Made by a program: the position numbers and the translations under genes
The notes under the pieces: model-generated
Database searches by the model: none
Seen by the model: the letters and a program-made list of their open reading frames with translations, nothing else
What the model was told of the DNA's origin: nothing
Origin: an uncultured Bacteroidales bacterium
GTDB taxonomy: Bacteria; Bacteroidota; Bacteroidia; Bacteroidales; Bacteroidaceae
DNA: 64,000 nt
NCBI GenBank assembly: GCA_902776455.1
Contig: CACYQI010000004.1
Span: forward strand, 16,949 to 80,948
Reading direction: 5' to 3'
In this document: positions 11,469-61,297 of the stretch, in pieces
Position numbering within the stretch: the stretch's first letter is position 1
Layout of the letters: every line of letters begins with the position of its first letter

Positions 11469-11507
11469 CGCACTTTTTTGCGGCACGACAAGGGAGGTGA
11501 TTTTACA

Positions 11508-11617
11508 CTCCACGGAGAATCGCCTCACACTCCACGGAGAATCGCCTCACACTCCACGGAGTATCGGCCGATGCTCCACGGAGTATCGGTCGATGCTCCA
11601 CGTTGTGTAAAACCCCA
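11508..11617. repeat. Array of five 22-base units (CTCCACGGAG core)
   Basis: Units begin at 11508, 11530, 11552, 11574 and 11596, exactly 22 bases apart: ACTCCACGGAGAATCGCCTC twice, then variants with AGTATCGGCCGAT, and a last unit with CTCCACGTTGTGT. CTCCACGGAG is itself palindromic. There are no unique spacers, so this is not a CRISPR array. Confidence 0.9.
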
Positions 11618-29226: not shown

Positions 29227-30384
29227 CTACCCTTCGCGCAGGAAGTCGAGTGTCTCGAAAATTTCTTCCTTTGAAGCCTGCTGGTTGATGCGTATGTCGC
29301 CGATGCCGCCAAGCAGGGTGAAGTTGATGATGTCGGCCTCGTTTTTCTTGTCGTGCCGCATGAGTTCGTAGAGGCGCTCGTACTGTTTGCAGTCGATGGC
29401 AGGCACGCCGTAGTGCTGCCGGATGAACTGTACGGTCTGCCGCATCTTGTCCTGCGGGAAGCCGCACTTCACTACGCTCAGGTACAGTTCGCAGACGAGG
29501 CCCCAAGCTACGGCATAGCCGTGCAGGACGGTCCGCCCTTGCTCCATGGCGAGACTTTCCAGAGCGTGCCCTGTCGTGTGCCCTAAGTTGAGAGCCTTGC
29601 GCAAGCCTTTCTCCGTCGGGTCCTGCTCCACGATGCGTTCCTTCACCTGCACGCTCTTCGCCACCAGCGAGCCGAGGAGGCTCCATTGACCATTGACCAT
29701 TGACCATTGACCATTGACCATTGGGCGTTGGTCGATGTTCCTTTCGGAGAAAGCTTCGGGAGTGGCCAAATGGTCTGTAGCCGATGTCGGATGCTCAAGG
29801 GCAGTCAGGTCGAAGCGGAGCAGTTCTGCCCAGCTCTCTTCGTCGCTGATGAGGCCGTGCTTGAGCATTTCGGCAAAGCCGGAGAGGAGGTTGCTGTGGT
29901 CGAGCGTATGCAGGAACTCGGTGGAGAGGATAACGGTCTGTGCGCAGTTGAACACGCCTATCTCGTTCTTCAGCCCACCGAAGTTGATGCCCGTCTTGCC
30001 GCCTACGCTTGCGTCCACCTGGCTGAGCAGCGTGGTTGGGATGTTGATGAAGGCGATGCCTCGCTTGAAGGTGCTGGCGGCGAAACCGCCCAGATCCGTC
30101 ACCATGCCGCCCCCCAGGTTCACCAGGAGCGAGTGGCGAGTGGCACCTCCCCGTTGAAGGGCCGTCCATACGGCAGACAGCGAGTCGAGCGTCTTGTTGT
30201 CGTCCGTCTCGCCAATGGTAATCATTTGCGCCCCTTCGAACTGAGGCATCTGGCTGACCAGCGGCCAGCAGAGACGAAGCGTCGTCGTGTCGGTAAGCAC
30301 AAAGAGCCGGTCGTGCGGGCATTGGGCAATGGCGTCCGCCGTGTCACAACGCAAGTCTTGGCTTATGATAATCTTGTTTTCCAT
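29227..30384 (-). CDS. aroB: 3-dehydroquinate synthase
   Basis: 385 residues; catalyses the second step of the shikimate pathway (DAHP to 3-dehydroquinate, NAD- and metal-dependent, cytoplasmic). Family motifs are present: LVNLGGGMVTDLGGFAAST (NAD site), FINIPTTLLSQVDASVGGKTG, ISTEF-like LSTEFLHTL, SGFAEMLKHGL, metal-binding Glu and His in AEMLKH and LNLGHTTGHALES. The start MENKII at 30384 is chosen over an ATG at 30408 because the -7 promoter box lies between them. Residues RPMVNGQWSMVNGQWSLLG, before the KSVQVKERIVEQDP helix, are encoded by six 7-base repeats and make the protein about 30 residues longer than usual for the family. Downstream is GH95, in the same direction but with a 135-base gap. 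Confidence 0.93.
   Translation of the reverse strand: MENKIIISQDLRCDTADAIAQCPHDRLFVLTDTTTLRLCWPLVSQMPQFEGAQMITIGETDDNKTLDSLSAVWTALQRGGATRHSLLVNLGGGMVTDLGGFAASTFKRGIAFINIPTTLLSQVDASVGGKTGINFGGLKNEIGVFNCAQTVILSTEFLHTLDHSNLLSGFAEMLKHGLISDEESWAELLRFDLTALEHPTSATDHLATPEAFSERNIDQRPMVNGQWSMVNGQWSLLGSLVAKSVQVKERIVEQDPTEKGLRKALNLGHTTGHALESLAMEQGRTVLHGYAVAWGLVCELYLSVVKCGFPQDKMRQTVQFIRQHYGVPAIDCKQYERLYELMRHDKKNEADIINFTLLGGIGDIRINQQASKEEIFETLDFLREG
29683..29724 (-). repeat. Six heptamer repeats (TCAATGG) inside aroB
   Basis: Plus strand CCATTGA repeated six times, 42 bases, encoding MVNGQWSMVNGQWS. The heptamer is not a multiple of three, so gain or loss of one unit would shift the aroB frame; at six units the frame is kept. 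Confidence 0.9.
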
Positions 30385-31044: not shown

Positions 31045-31345
31045 GCACAACCTCCCATTCCCCTCCCCTCCAAGGGGAGGGGTTAGGGGTGGGGTCTCTC
31101 ACACAGAAAACAGAACGGTCGCCTTCGGCGAAGTGAAGAGTGAAGAGTGAAGAGTGAAAAATCAAAGTTACTATGCTCCGCAGCAGAAGCCCCTCCCCCT
31201 TGGGGGAGGATGGGAGGGGGCTTTTCCTTTTAGGGGAGGATTTAGGAGAGGCTTCCCCTCCCCTCAAAAGCGAGGGGAATGGCGCTGAGAACAAGTTGGC
31301 ATACAAAAGCCCCCTTCCCCTGCTTTCGGAGGGGAGGGGAGCCAA
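31045..31345. repeat. C/G-rich palindromic cluster (copy 6)
   Basis: CCCCTCCCC/GGGGAGGGGTTAGGGGTGGGG blocks, a CACACAGAAAACAG spacer shared with copy 4, and a GAAGAGTGAAGAGTGAAGAG short tandem repeat at about 31135-31157. Confidence 0.85.
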
Positions 31346-35917: not shown

Positions 35918-36027
35918 ACTCCGTGGAGTGTGGCCCGATGCTCCGTGGAGAATAAGCCGATACTCCGTGGAGTGTAAGCCGATGCTCCGTGGAGTGTGAG
36001 CCGATGCTCCGTGGAGTATAAACCGAT
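35918..36027. repeat. Array of five 22-base units (CTCCGTGGAG core)
   Basis: Units start at 35918, 35940, 35962, 35984 and 36006: ACTCCGTGGAGTGTAAGCCGAT and close variants. The CTCCGTGGAG core is palindromic. It lies right behind the fold-back element and before the stop of the TonB receptor gene. Confidence 0.9.
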
Positions 36028-36085
36028 GCCCCTGCATGCTCATCTGCATACAGGGGCATCTGTTTTGATTATCAAGCTGTTGTGC

Positions 36086-39782: not shown

Positions 39783-39857
39783 ATTTCGTGGTTCCTCGTT
39801 ATGGTTTCTGCGGGGGCAGGGGGCATAGGACAAAGAACAAGAGCATACCGACTCCTT

Positions 39858-39898
39858 CTGCACTCCTCTTGCCCCTTGCTCCTTGCCCCTTGCTCCAA
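39858..39898. repeat. CCCCTTGCTCCTTG short repeat between genes
   Basis: CTCTTGCCCCTTGCTCCTTG followed by CCCCTTGCTCC; near-identical to the right arm of the insert in the ABC ATPase gene (49484-49517). The left side (39811-39845) is only loosely inverted. The rest of the gap to 40126 holds the DUF2582 gene promoter. Confidence 0.8.
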
Positions 39899-45890: not shown

Positions 45891-45984
45891 CAAACTACAC
45901 GTGCCAACTTCTCAAACTTAACGTGCTTAATCGACAAACTTAACGTGCTTAATTGACAAACTTAACGTGCTTAATTGACAAACT
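45891..45984 (+). repeat. Four 22-base units between ftsK and the lolA-like gene
   Basis: Units start at 45891, 45913, 45935 and 45957: CAAACTTAACGTGCTTAATTGA with variants, plus a partial fifth. AACGTG and the 22-base period recall the CTCCACGTT units of the other arrays. The array starts 6 bases after the ftsK stop and ends 14 bases before the next ATG. Confidence 0.9.
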
Positions 45985-47710: not shown

Positions 47711-49210
47711 ATGAATTCATACAAGCTCTACAAACTGATTTGCAAGAACGCAGACCTCAAGGAAGCGCGGCATCCGATGCTCGACAAGAACCGCTTCATG
47801 AAGTTCCTCATGGCTTTCATGTGGCTCTATTATGCCGCCATCCTACTCTTCATGGGTGTCGTGATGGCTATGGGCATGCGGAACAGCTACAATGGGGTGG
47901 CAGCCTTTCATGTCTTCGATGGCGGCTTACTGTACCTCCTGATAACAGACTTTTGGGTTCGCTTTATTCTTCAAGAGACGCCGGCCCAGCAAGCACAGCC
48001 CTACGCCCTGCTGCCCATTCGCCGTTCCTTCCTGATGAAGGTCTATCTCACTCGTTCCGGCCTTGCTTGGGGCAACCTCTACTGGGGCTTCCTGCTCGTC
48101 CCCTTCGCCCTCATCGCTATCGCTATTCCCTTGGGCTGGGGTGCTACGATAGGGTGGCTGCTTGGCTGGTGGCTGCTTCTTGTGATGAACGGATACGCCT
48201 ACCTCTTCTGCCGTGCTTTGATAATGAAGCACATGGCTTGGCTTCTTTTACCCATCGCTATCCACGGAGCCTTGCTTGCCATCATGCTTGTCCCTGACAA
48301 GGACCCGCTCGACATGCCCTGCACGCTGTTCATGTATGGCTTCCTCAAGTGGGAAGTCCTGCCCTTCCTTTGTGTCGGCACCCTGATAGCTTTCCTCTAC
48401 TGGGCCAACTACAAGTTGCAGATGGGCATGGTCTATGACGAGGTGGGCAAGAAGGAAGAGAAGGAAATCAAGCACGCCACGCAGCTCAACTTCCTGAACC
48501 GTTACGGCAAGCTCGGCGAGTACCTGAAGCTCGAGGTCAAGCAAAGGCTTCGCAACAAGACGGTGAGGATGAGCTTCTTCGTGGGACTGGGATTCATGAT
48601 TCTGCTGAGCGGCCTCATGTACTTCAGCGATGTTTACGACAACAGCTTCATGCGCTCATTCATCTGCCTCTACAACTACATCGTGCTGGGTATGATGACA
48701 CTCATCACGATTATGTGCTACGAGGGTAACTATATCGACGGCCTGATGAGCCGCCGCGAGAGCATCCTGCAACTGCTCACGGCCAAATACTACTTCAACG
48801 TGCTGCTGCTCTTCATCCCGCCCATCATCCTGCTGCCCTTGATGATTATCGGCAAGATGTCTGTCTGGATGAACGTCGGCTACTTCTTCTTCACGGCAGG
48901 TGTAATCTATCCGGCCTTCTTCCAAATGGCTGTCTATAACAACAACACCTTGCCCATGAACACGAAGATAACAAGCAAACAAGGCAATACCACCCAGCAA
49001 ATCTTCAGCACAATCATCTTCTTCATCCCAATCGGGTTGGAGAGAGCAGCCACAGCCTTGCTTGGCGAACCTTGGGGCTACTTGTTCCTGGCTGTGCTTG
49101 GTATCATTGGTGTGGCAACTCATCAATATTGGCTTCGAAATGTTTATACGCGCTTCATGGCCCGACGATACAAGAACATGGAAGGCTTCCGTGCCTCAAG
49201 ACAAAGTTGA
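47711..49210 (+). CDS. DUF5687 membrane protein (ABC transporter permease-like)
   Basis: 499 residues with about ten to twelve membrane helices (FLMAFMWLYYAAILLFMGVV; LYWGFLLVPFALIAIAIPLG; FFVGLGFMILLSGLMYFSDV; YYFNVLLLFIPPIILLPLMI; WGYLFLAVLGIIGVATHQYW). The layout and the neighbouring ATPase gene fit the DUF5687 family, thought to be the permease of a two-part ABC exporter. Substrate unknown. The gap to the ATPase (39 bases) contains GTTGAAAAGTTGAAAAGG short repeats. Confidence 0.8.
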   Translation: MNSYKLYKLICKNADLKEARHPMLDKNRFMKFLMAFMWLYYAAILLFMGVVMAMGMRNSYNGVAAFHVFDGGLLYLLITDFWVRFILQETPAQQAQPYALLPIRRSFLMKVYLTRSGLAWGNLYWGFLLVPFALIAIAIPLGWGATIGWLLGWWLLLVMNGYAYLFCRALIMKHMAWLLLPIAIHGALLAIMLVPDKDPLDMPCTLFMYGFLKWEVLPFLCVGTLIAFLYWANYKLQMGMVYDEVGKKEEKEIKHATQLNFLNRYGKLGEYLKLEVKQRLRNKTVRMSFFVGLGFMILLSGLMYFSDVYDNSFMRSFICLYNYIVLGMMTLITIMCYEGNYIDGLMSRRESILQLLTAKYYFNVLLLFIPPIILLPLMIIGKMSVWMNVGYFFFTAGVIYPAFFQMAVYNNNTLPMNTKITSKQGNTTQQIFSTIIFFIPIGLERAATALLGEPWGYLFLAVLGIIGVATHQYWLRNVYTRFMARRYKNMEGFRASRQS

Positions 49211-49245
49211 AAAGTTGAAAAGGTAAAAAAGTGAAAAAGATATAG
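49203..49245. repeat. GTTGAAAAG short tandem repeat
   Basis: AAGTTGAAAAGTTGAAAAGG and AAAAAAGTGAAAAAG between the permease and ATPase genes; matches the arms of the insert in the TonB receptor at 60201. Confidence 0.75.
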
Positions 49246-49249
49246 AGAT

Positions 49250-50041
49250 ATGGACATCATTATAAAAGACCTCAAGAAGACTTTCGGCGAGAAGGTTGCC
49301 GTCGATATACCCGAACTGACCATCCACAGCGGCGAGTTGCTGGGATTGGTGGGCAACAATGGTGCCGGCAAGAGTACGCTCTTCCGCCTCATCCTCGACC
49401 TCATCAAGGCCGACACGGGAACGGTACACATGGGGCAAGGAGCAAGGGGCAAGGAGCATGAGAATCCTTCCTGCCCCGACAATCCTCTTGCCCCTTGCTC
49501 CTTGCCCCTTGCCCCTTGTTTTATCAATGTGGCCGAGACTGAAGTCTGGAAGGACTGGACGGGCGCTTTCGTGGACGAAAGCTTCCTTATCGACTACCTC
49601 ACGCCCGACGAGTACTTCCAGTTCATCGCCCGCCTCACAGACACGAGCGACGAGCAGTTGGAGGCGTTTCTTGCAGAGTATCAGCACTTCATGGCCGACG
49701 AGCTGGCCGGACAGAAGAAGCTCATCCGCACCCTCAGCGCGGGCAACAAGCAGAAGGTGGGCATCATGGCGGCCATGCTACTGAGGCCCAAAGTGCTCAT
49801 CCTCGACGAGCCTTTCAACTTCCTCGACCCCAGCAGCCAGAACGCCATCAAGCATCTGCTGAAGAAGTACAACGAGGAGACGGGCGCAACCATCCTCGTC
49901 AGCAGTCACAACCTGCAGCATACCGTCGATATCAGCCAGCGCATCGTCCTGCTCGAGCACGGCAAAGTCATCCACGACATAGACAATCGCGAGAAGCAAG
50001 CGCAGGACATCCTTGAAAACTACTTTGAGATAAATGAATAA
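49250..50041 (+). CDS. ABC transporter ATP-binding protein with repeat insert
   Basis: 263 residues. Walker A GNNGAGKST (36-44), signature LSAGNKQKVG, Walker B VLILDEPF, then LVSSHNLQ. It pairs with the DUF5687 permease upstream. Residues about 62-91 (GQGARGKEHENPSCPD, then NPLAPCSLPLAPC) are unlike any ABC protein: they are encoded by a palindromic CCTTGCTCC-type repeat inserted where the family normally has a short turn between GTV and the (N/D)VA..EVWK segment. The frame is kept and all catalytic motifs remain. The gene overlaps the next by 8 bases. Confidence 0.9.
   Translation: MDIIIKDLKKTFGEKVAVDIPELTIHSGELLGLVGNNGAGKSTLFRLILDLIKADTGTVHMGQGARGKEHENPSCPDNPLAPCSLPLAPCFINVAETEVWKDWTGAFVDESFLIDYLTPDEYFQFIARLTDTSDEQLEAFLAEYQHFMADELAGQKKLIRTLSAGNKQKVGIMAAMLLRPKVLILDEPFNFLDPSSQNAIKHLLKKYNEETGATILVSSHNLQHTVDISQRIVLLEHGKVIHDIDNREKQAQDILENYFEINE
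49432..49517 (+). repeat. Palindromic insert inside the ABC ATPase gene
   Basis: Left arm GGGGCAAGGAGCAAGGGGCA plus AGGAG (49432-49456) is inverted at 49484-49507 with one base missing; the loop is ATGAGAATCCTTCCTGCCCC plus GACAATC. A further CCCCTTG unit follows. The right arm matches the intergenic repeat at 39858. Confidence 0.9.
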
Positions 50042-51218
50042 GATACCTCGTGGCATTCCCTGCCTGGCGGTCATCATCATCTTCTTCGGCTACCTGTCGT
50101 CGGTGATGGGCTTCACCAACATGCTCAACACCATCATGCGCACAGCCCACGACCTGCTGCTCAACACCGTCTTCTACCTCATGGCCATGTGCGTGCTGAC
50201 GGCCGCTCTGAGCCGCATCTTCAGCGTCTTCGGCGTGGTGGACCTCTTGCAACGCATCCTCAAGCCTGTCCTTCGCCCGCTCTACGGGCTGCCGGGCGTC
50301 TCGTCGGCCGGTGCTCTGATGACGTTCCTCAGCGACAAACCCGCCATCATCTCCGTGGCGAAGAACCCGCAGTTCGCGCGTTACTTCAAGCGCTACCAGC
50401 ACATCAGCCTCGTCAACTTCGCAGGCAGTTTCGCCATGGGGCTGCTCGTCGTCATCTTCATGATGGGCCACGGCTACTACACCGAGCCGCTCTACGGCCT
50501 TGTGGGAGCCGTCTGCGGCAGCATCATCGCCACCCGACTCATGCAGCGACTCGTGCTCCGTGAACATCCCGAATACTTGAACGAGGACGTCGTCGGCAGC
50601 AAGGAGCAGGAAATGGTAGATGGGAAATGGGTGAATGGCAAGTACGAGACGCATCCCCACGAACCCGGGCAGACGCTCTTCATCCGCATCCTCGATGCCC
50701 TGCTCGACGGAGGCAAGACGGGCGTAGAAGTGGGCCTTGCCATCATTCCCGGCGTGCTCATCATCTCCACCCTCGTCATGATGCTCACCTTCAGCGGCGT
50801 TCCTGCGCCCGACGGCCACGGCGTCATCTACACGGGCGAAGCCTATCAGGGCACGGAGCTGCTGCCGCATCTGGCCGGCAAGCTCAGCTATCTGCTCGAC
50901 TGGCTCTTCGGCTTCAAGTCCAGCCAGCTGGTGGCCTTCCCCATCACCGCGCTCGGAACGGTCGGCGCAGCCCTCGGCCTCATCCCCGAGATGATGAAGA
51001 GCGGCATCATCGACAGCAACGCCATCGCCGTCTTCACCGCCATGGGCATGTGCTGGAGCGGCTTCCTCAGCGCCGATGCCGCAACGCTCGACTCCCTTGG
51101 CTACCGCCATTTCATCTCCCGCTCCTTCACGTGTACCTTCGTGGCGGGTCTCTCGGCAGGCATCATCACCCATTGGCTCTACTTCCTCGTCACGTATCTC
51201 AGCGCCAACCTCGGTTGA
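50034..51218 (+). CDS. Nucleoside-recognition (Gate) domain membrane protein
   Basis: 394 residues. Two Gate-type halves: residues about 30-175 (LTAALSRIFSVFGVVDLLQR; LSDKPAIISVAKNP; FAGSFAMGLLVVIFMMG) and about 235-394 (VEVGLAIIPGVLIISTLVMM; FGFKSSQLVAFPITALGTVG; GFLSADAATLDSLGYR). Such proteins sit in the inner membrane and are thought to transport or gate a small molecule; nucleoside specificity is only a family label. The hydrophilic loop between the halves carries EMVDGKWVNGKY, encoded by an ATGGGAAATGG-type short repeat. Translated with the ABC ATPase through an 8-base overlap. Confidence 0.8.
   Translation: MNKIPRGIPCLAVIIIFFGYLSSVMGFTNMLNTIMRTAHDLLLNTVFYLMAMCVLTAALSRIFSVFGVVDLLQRILKPVLRPLYGLPGVSSAGALMTFLSDKPAIISVAKNPQFARYFKRYQHISLVNFAGSFAMGLLVVIFMMGHGYYTEPLYGLVGAVCGSIIATRLMQRLVLREHPEYLNEDVVGSKEQEMVDGKWVNGKYETHPHEPGQTLFIRILDALLDGGKTGVEVGLAIIPGVLIISTLVMMLTFSGVPAPDGHGVIYTGEAYQGTELLPHLAGKLSYLLDWLFGFKSSQLVAFPITALGTVGAALGLIPEMMKSGIIDSNAIAVFTAMGMCWSGFLSADAATLDSLGYRHFISRSFTCTFVAGLSAGIITHWLYFLVTYLSANLG
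50610..50642 (+). repeat. In-frame AAATGGTAGATGGG repeat in the Gate protein
   Basis: GAAATGGTAGATGGGAAATG then GGTGAATGGC, coding for EMVDGKWVNG in the loop between the two Gate halves. The unit is that of the intergenic repeat at 39670 in reverse. Confidence 0.7.
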
Positions 51219-51870: not shown

Positions 51871-51883
51871 TTCGTGTCCTGTT

Positions 51884-51994
51884 CTGGCGGATTTGCAATC
51901 CGCCAGCATCGAATAAAGGCATTTGCAATGCCTTCAATCGTGTTCTTTGGGATTACAAATCTCTATCTCCTTGCGGTCGGATTACAAATCCGCC
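51884..51994 (+). repeat. Four palindromes spaced about 30 bases (copy 1)
   Basis: GGCGGATTTGCAATCCGCC, AAGGCATTTGCAATGCCTT, GGGATTACAAATCTC and CGGATTACAAATCCG, with centres near 51895, 51926, 51956 and 51986. The same element lies in opposite orientation at 61008-61117. Confidence 0.85.
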
Positions 51995-52096
51995 CGAACC
52001 GCGGACTTCCTTTCAAGTCTCTGCCGAAGGCCGATTCGCCCGAAAGATAATGCTGTCCGCGGGAAAAGCGCCGTAGGTGCGATAGGACACATAGCA

Positions 52097-57206: not shown

Positions 57207-58244
57207 ATGAGCAAACTCTCAAAGCCTGCCGGGTACAAAGCTTTGCTGGACCTCAGCCAAACGGAGCAGGCAATAAAGAAGATTAAAGACTTTTTCCTTT
57301 GCAGTCTCAGTACGGAGTTGCGTCTGAGCCGTGTAACGGCACCGCTTTTCGTGCTGCGCGGCTTGGGCATCAACGACGACCTCAACGGTGTGGAACGCCC
57401 TGTCAGCTTCCCCATCAAGGACATGGACGATGCTGTGGCCGAGGTGGTACACTCCTTGGCTAAGTGGAAACGCTTGACGCTTGCCGAGTACAAAACTAAG
57501 CCGGGCTTCGGCATCGTGACCGACATGAACGCCATCCGTGCCGACGAGGAGCTGGACAACATACATAGCCTTTACGTTGACCAGTGGGACTGGGAGCGTG
57601 TGCTGCTGCCTGAACATCGCAACGAGGCATACCTGCGTCGCATCGTCCAGAAGATATACAGCGCCATCCTTCGCACCGAGTTCTACATCTGCGAAACGTA
57701 TTCGCAGCTTCGGCCTTACCTGCCCGAGGACATCCACTTCATACATAGCGAAGAACTGCTACAGATGTTCCCCGACAAGACGGCGAAGGAGCGCGAGCAC
57801 CTCATCTGCCAGAAGTACGGAGCCGTGTTCATTATGGGCATTGGCGGCAAGCTGAGCAATGGCGAGGTACACGACAACCGCGCCCCCGACTACGACGACT
57901 GGAGCACACCCAACGAGAGCGGCTTCATGGGCCTCAATGGCGACCTGCTTGTCTGGTATCCCATGTTGGGACGAAGCATCGAGCTTAGTTCGATGGGCAT
58001 CCGCGTTGACAAGGAGGCCCTCTTGCGCCAGCTTGCCCTGCAAGGCAAGGAAGAACGCGAGCAGCTTTACTTCCATCAGCGACTGCTGAGCGACACGTTG
58101 CCCCTGACCATCGGCGGCGGCATCGGTCAGAGCCGTCTCTGCATGGTGCTGCTGCACAAGGCGCATATCGGCGAGACGCAGGCCAGCATCTGGCCCGACA
58201 GCATGAGGCAGGAATGCCGAGAGGCAGGAATGCAACTTATATAA
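57207..58244 (+). CDS. asnA: Aspartate-ammonia ligase
   Basis: 345 residues; makes asparagine from aspartate, ammonia and ATP (class II tRNA-synthetase-like fold). Landmarks: LSRVTAPLFVLRGLGINDDL, RPVSFPIKD, VVHSLAKWKRLTLAEY, GIVTDMNAIRADEELDNIHS, YVDQWDWERV, FIMGIGGKLSNGE and the closing GGGIGQSRLCMVLL. Length is that of the family. Transcribed alone from a strong promoter. Confidence 0.97.
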   Translation: MSKLSKPAGYKALLDLSQTEQAIKKIKDFFLCSLSTELRLSRVTAPLFVLRGLGINDDLNGVERPVSFPIKDMDDAVAEVVHSLAKWKRLTLAEYKTKPGFGIVTDMNAIRADEELDNIHSLYVDQWDWERVLLPEHRNEAYLRRIVQKIYSAILRTEFYICETYSQLRPYLPEDIHFIHSEELLQMFPDKTAKEREHLICQKYGAVFIMGIGGKLSNGEVHDNRAPDYDDWSTPNESGFMGLNGDLLVWYPMLGRSIELSSMGIRVDKEALLRQLALQGKEEREQLYFHQRLLSDTLPLTIGGGIGQSRLCMVLLHKAHIGETQASIWPDSMRQECREAGMQLI

Positions 58245-58250
58245 TTAATT

Positions 58251-58339
58251 AAGAATTAAGAAAGAAGAATTAAGAATTAAGATTGAAAGCTAAGAACGAG
58301 CATTATATCAGGATTCTTAATTCTTCTTTCTTAATTCTT
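58251..58339 (+). repeat. Perfect 27-base inverted repeat of GAATTAAG units
   Basis: AAGAATTAAGAAAGAAGAAT plus TAAGAAT (58251-58277) is perfectly inverted at 58313-58339 with 35 bases between. Lying 7 bases after asnA it may also serve as a terminator-like hairpin. It has the same build (tandem short units as arms) as the inserts within genes. Confidence 0.9.
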
Positions 58340-58364
58340 CATTTATCATTAAAATCATTAGTCA

Positions 58365-60935: not shown

Positions 60936-61007
60936 AGAAATATCTTGACAAAAGTTGCGTAGGTTTTGAGATGAAGTTAAATGGGGAATCAAGTTCCCTG
61001 TTTGGTT

Positions 61008-61117
61008 GGATTTGTAATCCGACCGCAAGGAGTATAGGGATTTGTAATCCCGCAATACTTTGCTGTCGGCATTACAAATGCCCAGACTCGCTTCTGGCGG
61101 ATTACAAATCCGCCAGA
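61008..61117 (-). repeat. Four palindromes spaced about 30 bases (copy 2)
   Basis: GGATTTGTAATCC, GGGATTTGTAATCCC, GGCATTACAAATGCC and GCGGATTACAAATCCGC, centres near 61014, 61044, 61075 and 61105. Inverse orientation of the element at 51884, with the same GACCGCAAGGAG and TTCTGGCGG flanks. Confidence 0.85.
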
Positions 61118-61297
61118 ACAGGTTGCTGACTGTCCAATAGCAACATCCGTTATAACACTTTTTGTAGCTTACGGAACTTGAATAAATGGTCAATGGAGAA
61201 CGGTAAATGACATACCTTTCGTGCGAACAATATATAAATAAGTATAATTTGCAAAATAAATCTGCTTTCATATCCCTTCATTCTTCAATTTTTTTTG

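Follow-up and report, generated by a model that had tools for sequence, protein, structure and literature searches.

An ABC ATPase gene in the window, i.e., the whole 64,000-nucleotide stretch of DNA from an uncultured Bacteroidales bacterium analysed here, carries an 84-bp palindromic element in its reading frame, and a second copy lies elsewhere in the same window. The features are as follows.

49250..50041, + strand: ABC ATPase gene, 263 aa, with the element in frame (ORF, PF00005 match and structure model)
49432..49515, + strand: complete 84-bp palindromic element, starting at the last base of codon 61 and running to codon 89
49432..49459, + strand: left arm, four 7-bp units GGRGCAA
49460..49487, - strand: 28-nt core, 19 of 28 positions as in GAGGATTGCTCTGGCTGTTGGTATTCTC
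49488..49515, + strand: right arm, four complementary units TTGCYCC
39813..39896, - strand: second, degenerate copy of the element, in no family-supported ORF (neighbours outside the scan)

The 263-aa ORF matches ABC_tran (PF00005, E = 4.3e-23). The arms, at 49429-49453 and 49487-49511, are 25 nt long and 96% complementary, and the palindrome extends imperfectly over 38 nt at 84% complementarity. The insert folds with a z score of -7.0, and none of 300 dinucleotide shuffles is equally low. Arms, ORF, PF00005 match and folding together confirm what an earlier sequence-only reading had claimed, a palindrome in frame within an ABC ATPase. That reading had given its extent as 49432-49517, of which the start stands, while the element proper ends at 49515 and measures exactly 84 bp; it had also located the right arm near 39858, where a relative is indeed found, yet as the degenerate full-length copy at 39813-39896 and not as the right arm alone. 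Within the 64-kb window, CAAGGRGCAAGG has 13 matches with at most one mismatch vs. 0.77 expected. No clear second case of an in-frame palindrome was found in the window, in which four candidate ORFs lay outside the family scan, and Rfam gave no match at gathering score across positions 49000-50100. In a structure model of the ABC ATPase that is based on a 29-sequence alignment (mean pLDDT 85.6), residues 66-86 have pLDDT values below 50 and lie between predicted strands 56-63 and 90-93, and a Foldseek search with the model returned ABC ATPases, such as LptB (4p33, E = 3.9e-19). On this prediction, the insert would lengthen a turn and the ABC fold would stay in place.

The source genome is a draft of 3.39 Mb in 94 contigs with 87% completeness. 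The arms, whose absence from the rest of the genome would have told against the sequence-only reading, are abundant elsewhere in it: the arm 18-mer CAAGGRGCAAGGRGCAAG has 80+86 occurrences, compared to none for the reversed control. Forty regions chosen by hand from the listed matches (the first 100 of 166 in one listing), together with the window, gave 36 detections, from which L128:1656 (the same element as L128:1642) and the doubtful L160:1457 were dropped, leaving 34 distinct elements as a census of the chosen regions only. Their common plan is a 28-nt core (GAGGATTGCTCTGGCTGTTGGTATTCTC and variants) between four 7-bp units on one side and four complementary units on the other. The length is 84 nt in 19 of the 34 copies (11/21 in genes and 8/13 elsewhere) and ranges from 63 to 92 nt. 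The 26 copies chosen for the 28-nt core align without gaps over 84 columns with a mean column identity of 87%, and pairwise identity among them averages 0.78 for the core and 0.81 for the arms. Ten fetched regions (L153-L159, L162, L163 and L165) contain 7-mer arrays that lack the canonical core and are outside the 34; such arrays also occur in family-supported ORFs, i.e., in L155 (GH43), L159 (PrmA) and L163 (PolyA_pol/HD).

A 7-bp period recurs in unrelated repeats of the source genome. Other 7-bp arrays in the window lie at 458-527, 29683-29723, 31132-31158 and 58241-58349, with the sequences TTGAAAG, CCATTGA, AGTGAAG and AATTAAG, and one is palindromic. The window also holds 22-bp tandem arrays at 2191-2252, 11505-11588, 35919-36029 and 45913-45984, of which those at 11505 and 35919 are apparently related to one another.

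Pfam or NCBIfam families are matched by the ORFs that hold 20 of the 34 elements in frame; a further one (L138) lies in an 824-aa ORF that matches no family, and the remaining 13 are elsewhere. The host genes are those for RNase R (TIGR02063), ArgS (TIGR00456), RecG (TIGR00643), EngB (TIGR03598), AroA (TIGR01356), AroE, an RsmF-like methyltransferase, a RecD2-like helicase, a GH43 protein, an AMP-ligase/acyltransferase, LolA, a SpoU methylase, an acyltransferase (two copies), a GSCFA protein, an HU-domain protein, an ODP protein, an FAD-dependent protein, a polysaccharide synthesis protein and the ABC ATPase. The matches to the named TIGR models exceed the curated cut-offs, and where other NCBIfam matches fall short of theirs, as some do, Pfam supplies the support. 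At least 17 of the 20 have a family or domain match to either side of the element, L147 has one on a single side, and the matches listed do not show both sides for L161 or the second copy in L143. Among the 13 copies elsewhere, L131, L133:3383, L135 and L149 each sit in an open frame that precedes a domain; they may be N-terminal or upstream DNA and are not counted in genes. The neighbouring ORFs of 11 of the 13 (all but L139 and the copy at 39841) were scanned in part, and among these no two flanking ORFs matched one family. The 20 in-frame copies in family-supported genes are in favour of the earlier inference that the element tolerates expression as protein.

The consensus core can be read in six ways, of which two are strongly hydrophobic (RIALAVGIL and GLLWLLVF) and one mildly so. 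None of the 21 in-gene copies is in the two strongly hydrophobic frames, and in 20 of them the reading used is among the three most hydrophilic that their own core allows (binomial P = 2e-5, assuming independent insertions, with a few copies on contig C10 being near-identical neighbours). The core is opposite to the coding strand in 18/21 (P = 0.0015). This use of hydrophilic frames is a sign of selection on the translated peptide, and because the arms are near-identical in either orientation, the frame bias is best read as removal of the copies that encode hydrophobic peptides. The consensus is stop-free in all six frames, as is the whole segment in 11 of the 21 gene copies and 6 of the 13 others vs. 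means of 0.24 and 0.04 for whole-segment shuffles, which break the palindrome. Selection for six-frame stop-freedom was considered and is weakened as an explanation, because the arms have no T and are therefore stop-free in any order, and 5% of the core shuffles are stop-free too, which makes this property only mildly surprising.

The homologs of the ABC ATPase comprised 109 loci and 85 distinct proteins, with the first 24 (L082-L105) used from one 44-locus listing, and all 85 linker lengths at the site are divisible by 3. The linker is 9-48 nt long in 57 of the 58 more distant homologs, the exception being L072 with 84 nt. Of the 27 close homologs, defined by an identity of 86% or more across the C-terminal part, 14 carry 21 or 33 nt at the site and the other 13 carry 48-141 nt. 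The 7-mer element occupies the site in L052, L082 and L053, CCCCTTTAAGGGG-type palindromes occupy it in L054, L088, L094, L095, L096, L099, L104 and L178, and a GGACAAT palindrome is found in L090 and an insert of no clear type in L103. When these 13 inserts were folded, eight beat all 300 shuffles and three stood at 1, 3 and 9 of 300, and the inserts of L096 and L103 did not stand out from their 300 shuffles. On a quick protein tree of 45 rows, with the linker excluded and most branches weak, insert vs. short linker requires at least seven changes and the family labels 12, the degenerate row L103 being left out of these counts; the well-supported branches alone force only two changes for the 7-mer element and two for the largest other type. 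A stop codon was flagged inside one G134 match, and none is within the site segments read. The named records of the closest homologs are of uncultured Bacteroidales, Prevotellaceae or Bacteroidaceae, L082 among them having the same insert, and their titles suggest the rumen as the host habitat. Most homologs are without the segment, the presence of which in all distant orthologs would have told against the sequence-only reading. That reading had further expected the segment to be missing exactly at the arm borders, which does not hold in the ABC gene because the loop is variable by nature and the old linker is only partly kept.

Sites in four other host genes were read in 14 hand-chosen genomes of the genus, with palindromes judged by eye, and were readable in 13 genomes for EngB, 13 for RNase R, 12 for ArgS and 12 for RecG. 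All site lengths are multiples of three, and the element is present in some species and absent from others at the same position, where other palindromes use the same loops. The cleanest empty or near-empty sites are those of EngB and RecG. At the RecG site, the source genome has 84 nt, 10 of 12 relatives have 6-9 nt and two have other palindromes. At the EngB site, 7 of 13 have no insert, four have other palindromes, G119 has the 7-mer element and G079 a possible remnant of 21 nt. The ArgS site holds the 7-mer element in G137, G020 and G119, a single arm in G079, other palindromes in G013 and G085, short palindromes in G027 and G080 and plain linkers of 33-36 nt in four, and the RNase R site holds the 7-mer element in G020, other palindromes in six and non-palindromic linkers of 63-81 nt in six. 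A stop codon was flagged within one match each of G013 (EngB) and G085 (ArgS), and none is in the site segments read. No target-site duplication was evident by eye at the four gene sites, whose flanks are diverged. The 21 nt in EngB of G079 (L226) are in frame and carry arm-like bases from both sides without the core, a possible trace of in-frame collapse or excision.

The occurrence of an 84-bp unit at many unrelated places implies mobility, and the element has the terminal inverted repeats that characterize a MITE. It could be a REP element mobilised by a REP-associated Y1 transposase (RAYT), given that Y1_Tnp matches are found in 8 of the 12 genomes searched out of the 139 of the genus and that REPs of subclass 2.4 are reported in frame inside tnpAREP (PMC6006769). 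However, heptamer arms are present at none of the 21 Y1 loci in flanks of up to about 1.5 kb on each side, four of these loci bear a different, CTGGCGGATTNNNAATCCGCCAG-type palindrome nearby and four of the 12 genomes have the element and no Y1 match, though those genomes are 62-89% complete. We therefore regard mobilisation by RAYT as unlikely. The Y1 transposase gene of L166 is flanked by CTGGCGGATTNNNAATCCGCCAG-type palindromes at 1283-1305 and 2210-2232, which likely constitute with it a separate REP/RAYT pair, and similar palindromes occur in L285, L287 and L293 and at 51881-51999 and 60997-61122 of the window. Repeats or palindromes are also seen in or near Y1-transposase-like frames of L167 (1650-1730) and L295 (733-789).

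By eye, many extragenic and some in-gene copies are placed between small hairpins of another palindrome family. This placement hints at insertion into existing hairpins, which could explain how families succeed one another at one place. In L139, L150, L152 and others, the element is between two small GACCC..GGGTC hairpins, and the palindromes look nested or modular.

The arm 18-mer is found in 24 of the 139 genomes of the genus and, in a sample of 393 genomes from the order, in 6, the source genome (G000) being included in both counts. G505 of the order sample has 22 matches, and in four of its regions the first matches are 7-mer arrays without the core. Phage or plasmid carriage was considered and rejected: among 32 viral stretches with the 18-mer, none fits the palindrome pattern, and blastn returned no match to phages and a single 35-nt match to a plasmid. 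In five pairs (ArgS in G137, G020 and G119, RNase R in G020 and the ABC gene in L082/G137), the shared insert is 94-100% identical vs. 84-87% at 60-300 nt upstream. Such conservation, along with a frame choice that reflects selection at the protein level, would be in keeping with a domesticated element whose mRNA hairpin or added peptide has a selected function in the host. However, the high identity extends into the 60 nt directly upstream, where it is 93-97% in sharers vs. non-sharer means of 74 (ArgS), 72 (RNase R) and 88 (ABC), which is what transferred alleles would show; the ABC case of sharing is weak, because the best non-sharers reach 95 in these 60 nt. In ArgS, mismatches return shortly downstream of the insert. 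Two further pairs are without such conservation, i.e., the insert of the same family in the ABC gene of L053, which is 85% identical with no raised flank, and L224 in EngB of G119, where the insert differs in unit number and the flanks are not raised. With most homologs also lacking the element and others having unrelated palindromes at the same position, domestication appears quite improbable. From these comparisons we infer, with moderate confidence, that insert-bearing alleles have occasionally been transferred between species by short recombination tracts.

It is very probable, in our judgement, that the element belongs to a small, non-autonomous palindromic repeat family of a rumen-type Bacteroidales genus whose in-gene copies are filtered by frame and peptide. 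Under this model, copies of the 84-bp hairpin element would have inserted around the genome, presumably moving as hairpin DNA with help supplied in trans, and a copy within a gene would persist only where the frame stays open, the peptide forms a soluble, flexible loop and the surface position is tolerant. The in-gene element would be translated, the element would be mainly selfish and insert-bearing alleles would sometimes pass between species via short homologous recombination. An origin by slippage that expands 7-bp repeats in place, with template switching making the palindromes and no dispersed element, is consistent with arms of tandem 7-mers that vary by G/A, with the common 7-mer arrays of different sequence in the window and with the ten core-less regions, but is highly unlikely, since the 28-nt core shared by 26 copies (0.78) and the 4+28+4 plan (84 nt in 19/34) need copying from locus to locus and the core homology speaks strongly against it. 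Of the selfish or slippage-driven origins named in the sequence-only reading, slippage is thus not the main driver, given the homologous core and the 84-bp plan common to the copies.

More tentatively, and with the balance tipped slightly against it, the filtered repeat family may be one instance of a pattern within the genus, in which fixed, permissive loops in conserved proteins serve as shared docking sites for several unrelated palindrome families in succession and provide a general route to loop lengthening. The element, with its 84 bp or 28 codons, T-free G-arm and stop-free core, would be readable in any frame and orientation, and alleles would cross species by short tracts, some of which end beside the hairpin.

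A rumen-type Bacteroidales genus of 139 genomes thus shows behaviour like that of Rickettsia palindromic elements (RPEs) in many core genes, with single sites represented by empty, filled, possibly collapsed and differently filled alleles. Such alleles make the movement of the element, its loss rate, any benefit to the host and the origin of new protein loops testable, and offer a new system for studying how selfish DNA becomes parts of proteins. They also carry a warning for gene calling and structure modelling in such genomes, where many added peptides of 20-45 residues will turn out to be repeat DNA.

Several known systems share some features with the element. Enterobacterial RU/ERIC and Neisseria Correia elements are described as small repeats with open frames that are fused in frame to genes (PMC2759123; PMC2229807); unlike them, 20 of the 34 recovered copies of the present element are in family-supported genes, and no target duplication was recognised by eye. 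REPs of subclass 2.4 are reported to be abundant in Cyanobacteria and Bacteroidetes, and the definition of REP given there includes a GT[AG]G foot at the stem (PMC6006769). The present element is likewise a short dispersed hairpin, but its arms are absent beside the 21 Y1 loci and no GT[AG]G foot was seen by eye at its ends in the 26-copy alignment. The TAACTGA-type heptamer repeats of Beggiatoaceae, Cyanobacteria and five Bacteroidetes, described as direct and mainly intergenic (PMC4679880), have the same tandem unit of 7 bp, whereas in the present element a pair of arrays encloses a conserved core and forms a hairpin. BrickBuilt of Porphyromonas gingivalis, a Bacteroidales MITE holding a minisatellite, is described as having a 23-bp unit and as always intergenic (PMC4596501), unlike the present 7-bp unit with copies in genes. 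Inverted repeats of up to 284 bp are reported inside protein-coding genes of Nematomorpha mitochondria (PMC6649704), which the present repeats resemble, by description, in lying inside coding genes and differ from in their bacterial host.

The nearest known kind, judged from the published descriptions, is that of RPEs (PMC2229807; PMC3767692; PMC10969869). RPEs and Wolbachia palindromic elements are described both from intergenic DNA and in frame within conserved genes, at solvent-exposed positions (PMC2229807; PMC3767692), and different groups, RPE-4, RPE-6 and RPE-7, are reported at or near one place in orthologs (PMC3767692). Coding palindromes have been described as peculiar to Rickettsia and then Wolbachia, according to the titles of cited papers, and among open-licence papers on in-frame palindromes or on repeats in Bacteroidetes and Bacteroidales, our search listed none that reports comparable coding palindromes from Bacteroidales. 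The present element is likewise a palindromic repeat in frame within conserved genes, and its class behaves like the Rickettsia palindromes to which the sequence-only reading had compared it, with most homologs lacking the segment, abundant arms and 20/34 copies in frame. It differs from RPEs in its Bacteroidales, not Rickettsiales, host, in its length of 84 bp vs. 105-146 bp (PMC2229807), in arms made of four tandem 7-mers and in the empty sites and unrelated palindromes shown by near relatives of the host. Compared by behaviour, host, build and length, the present element appears to work like an RPE and is not filed as one.
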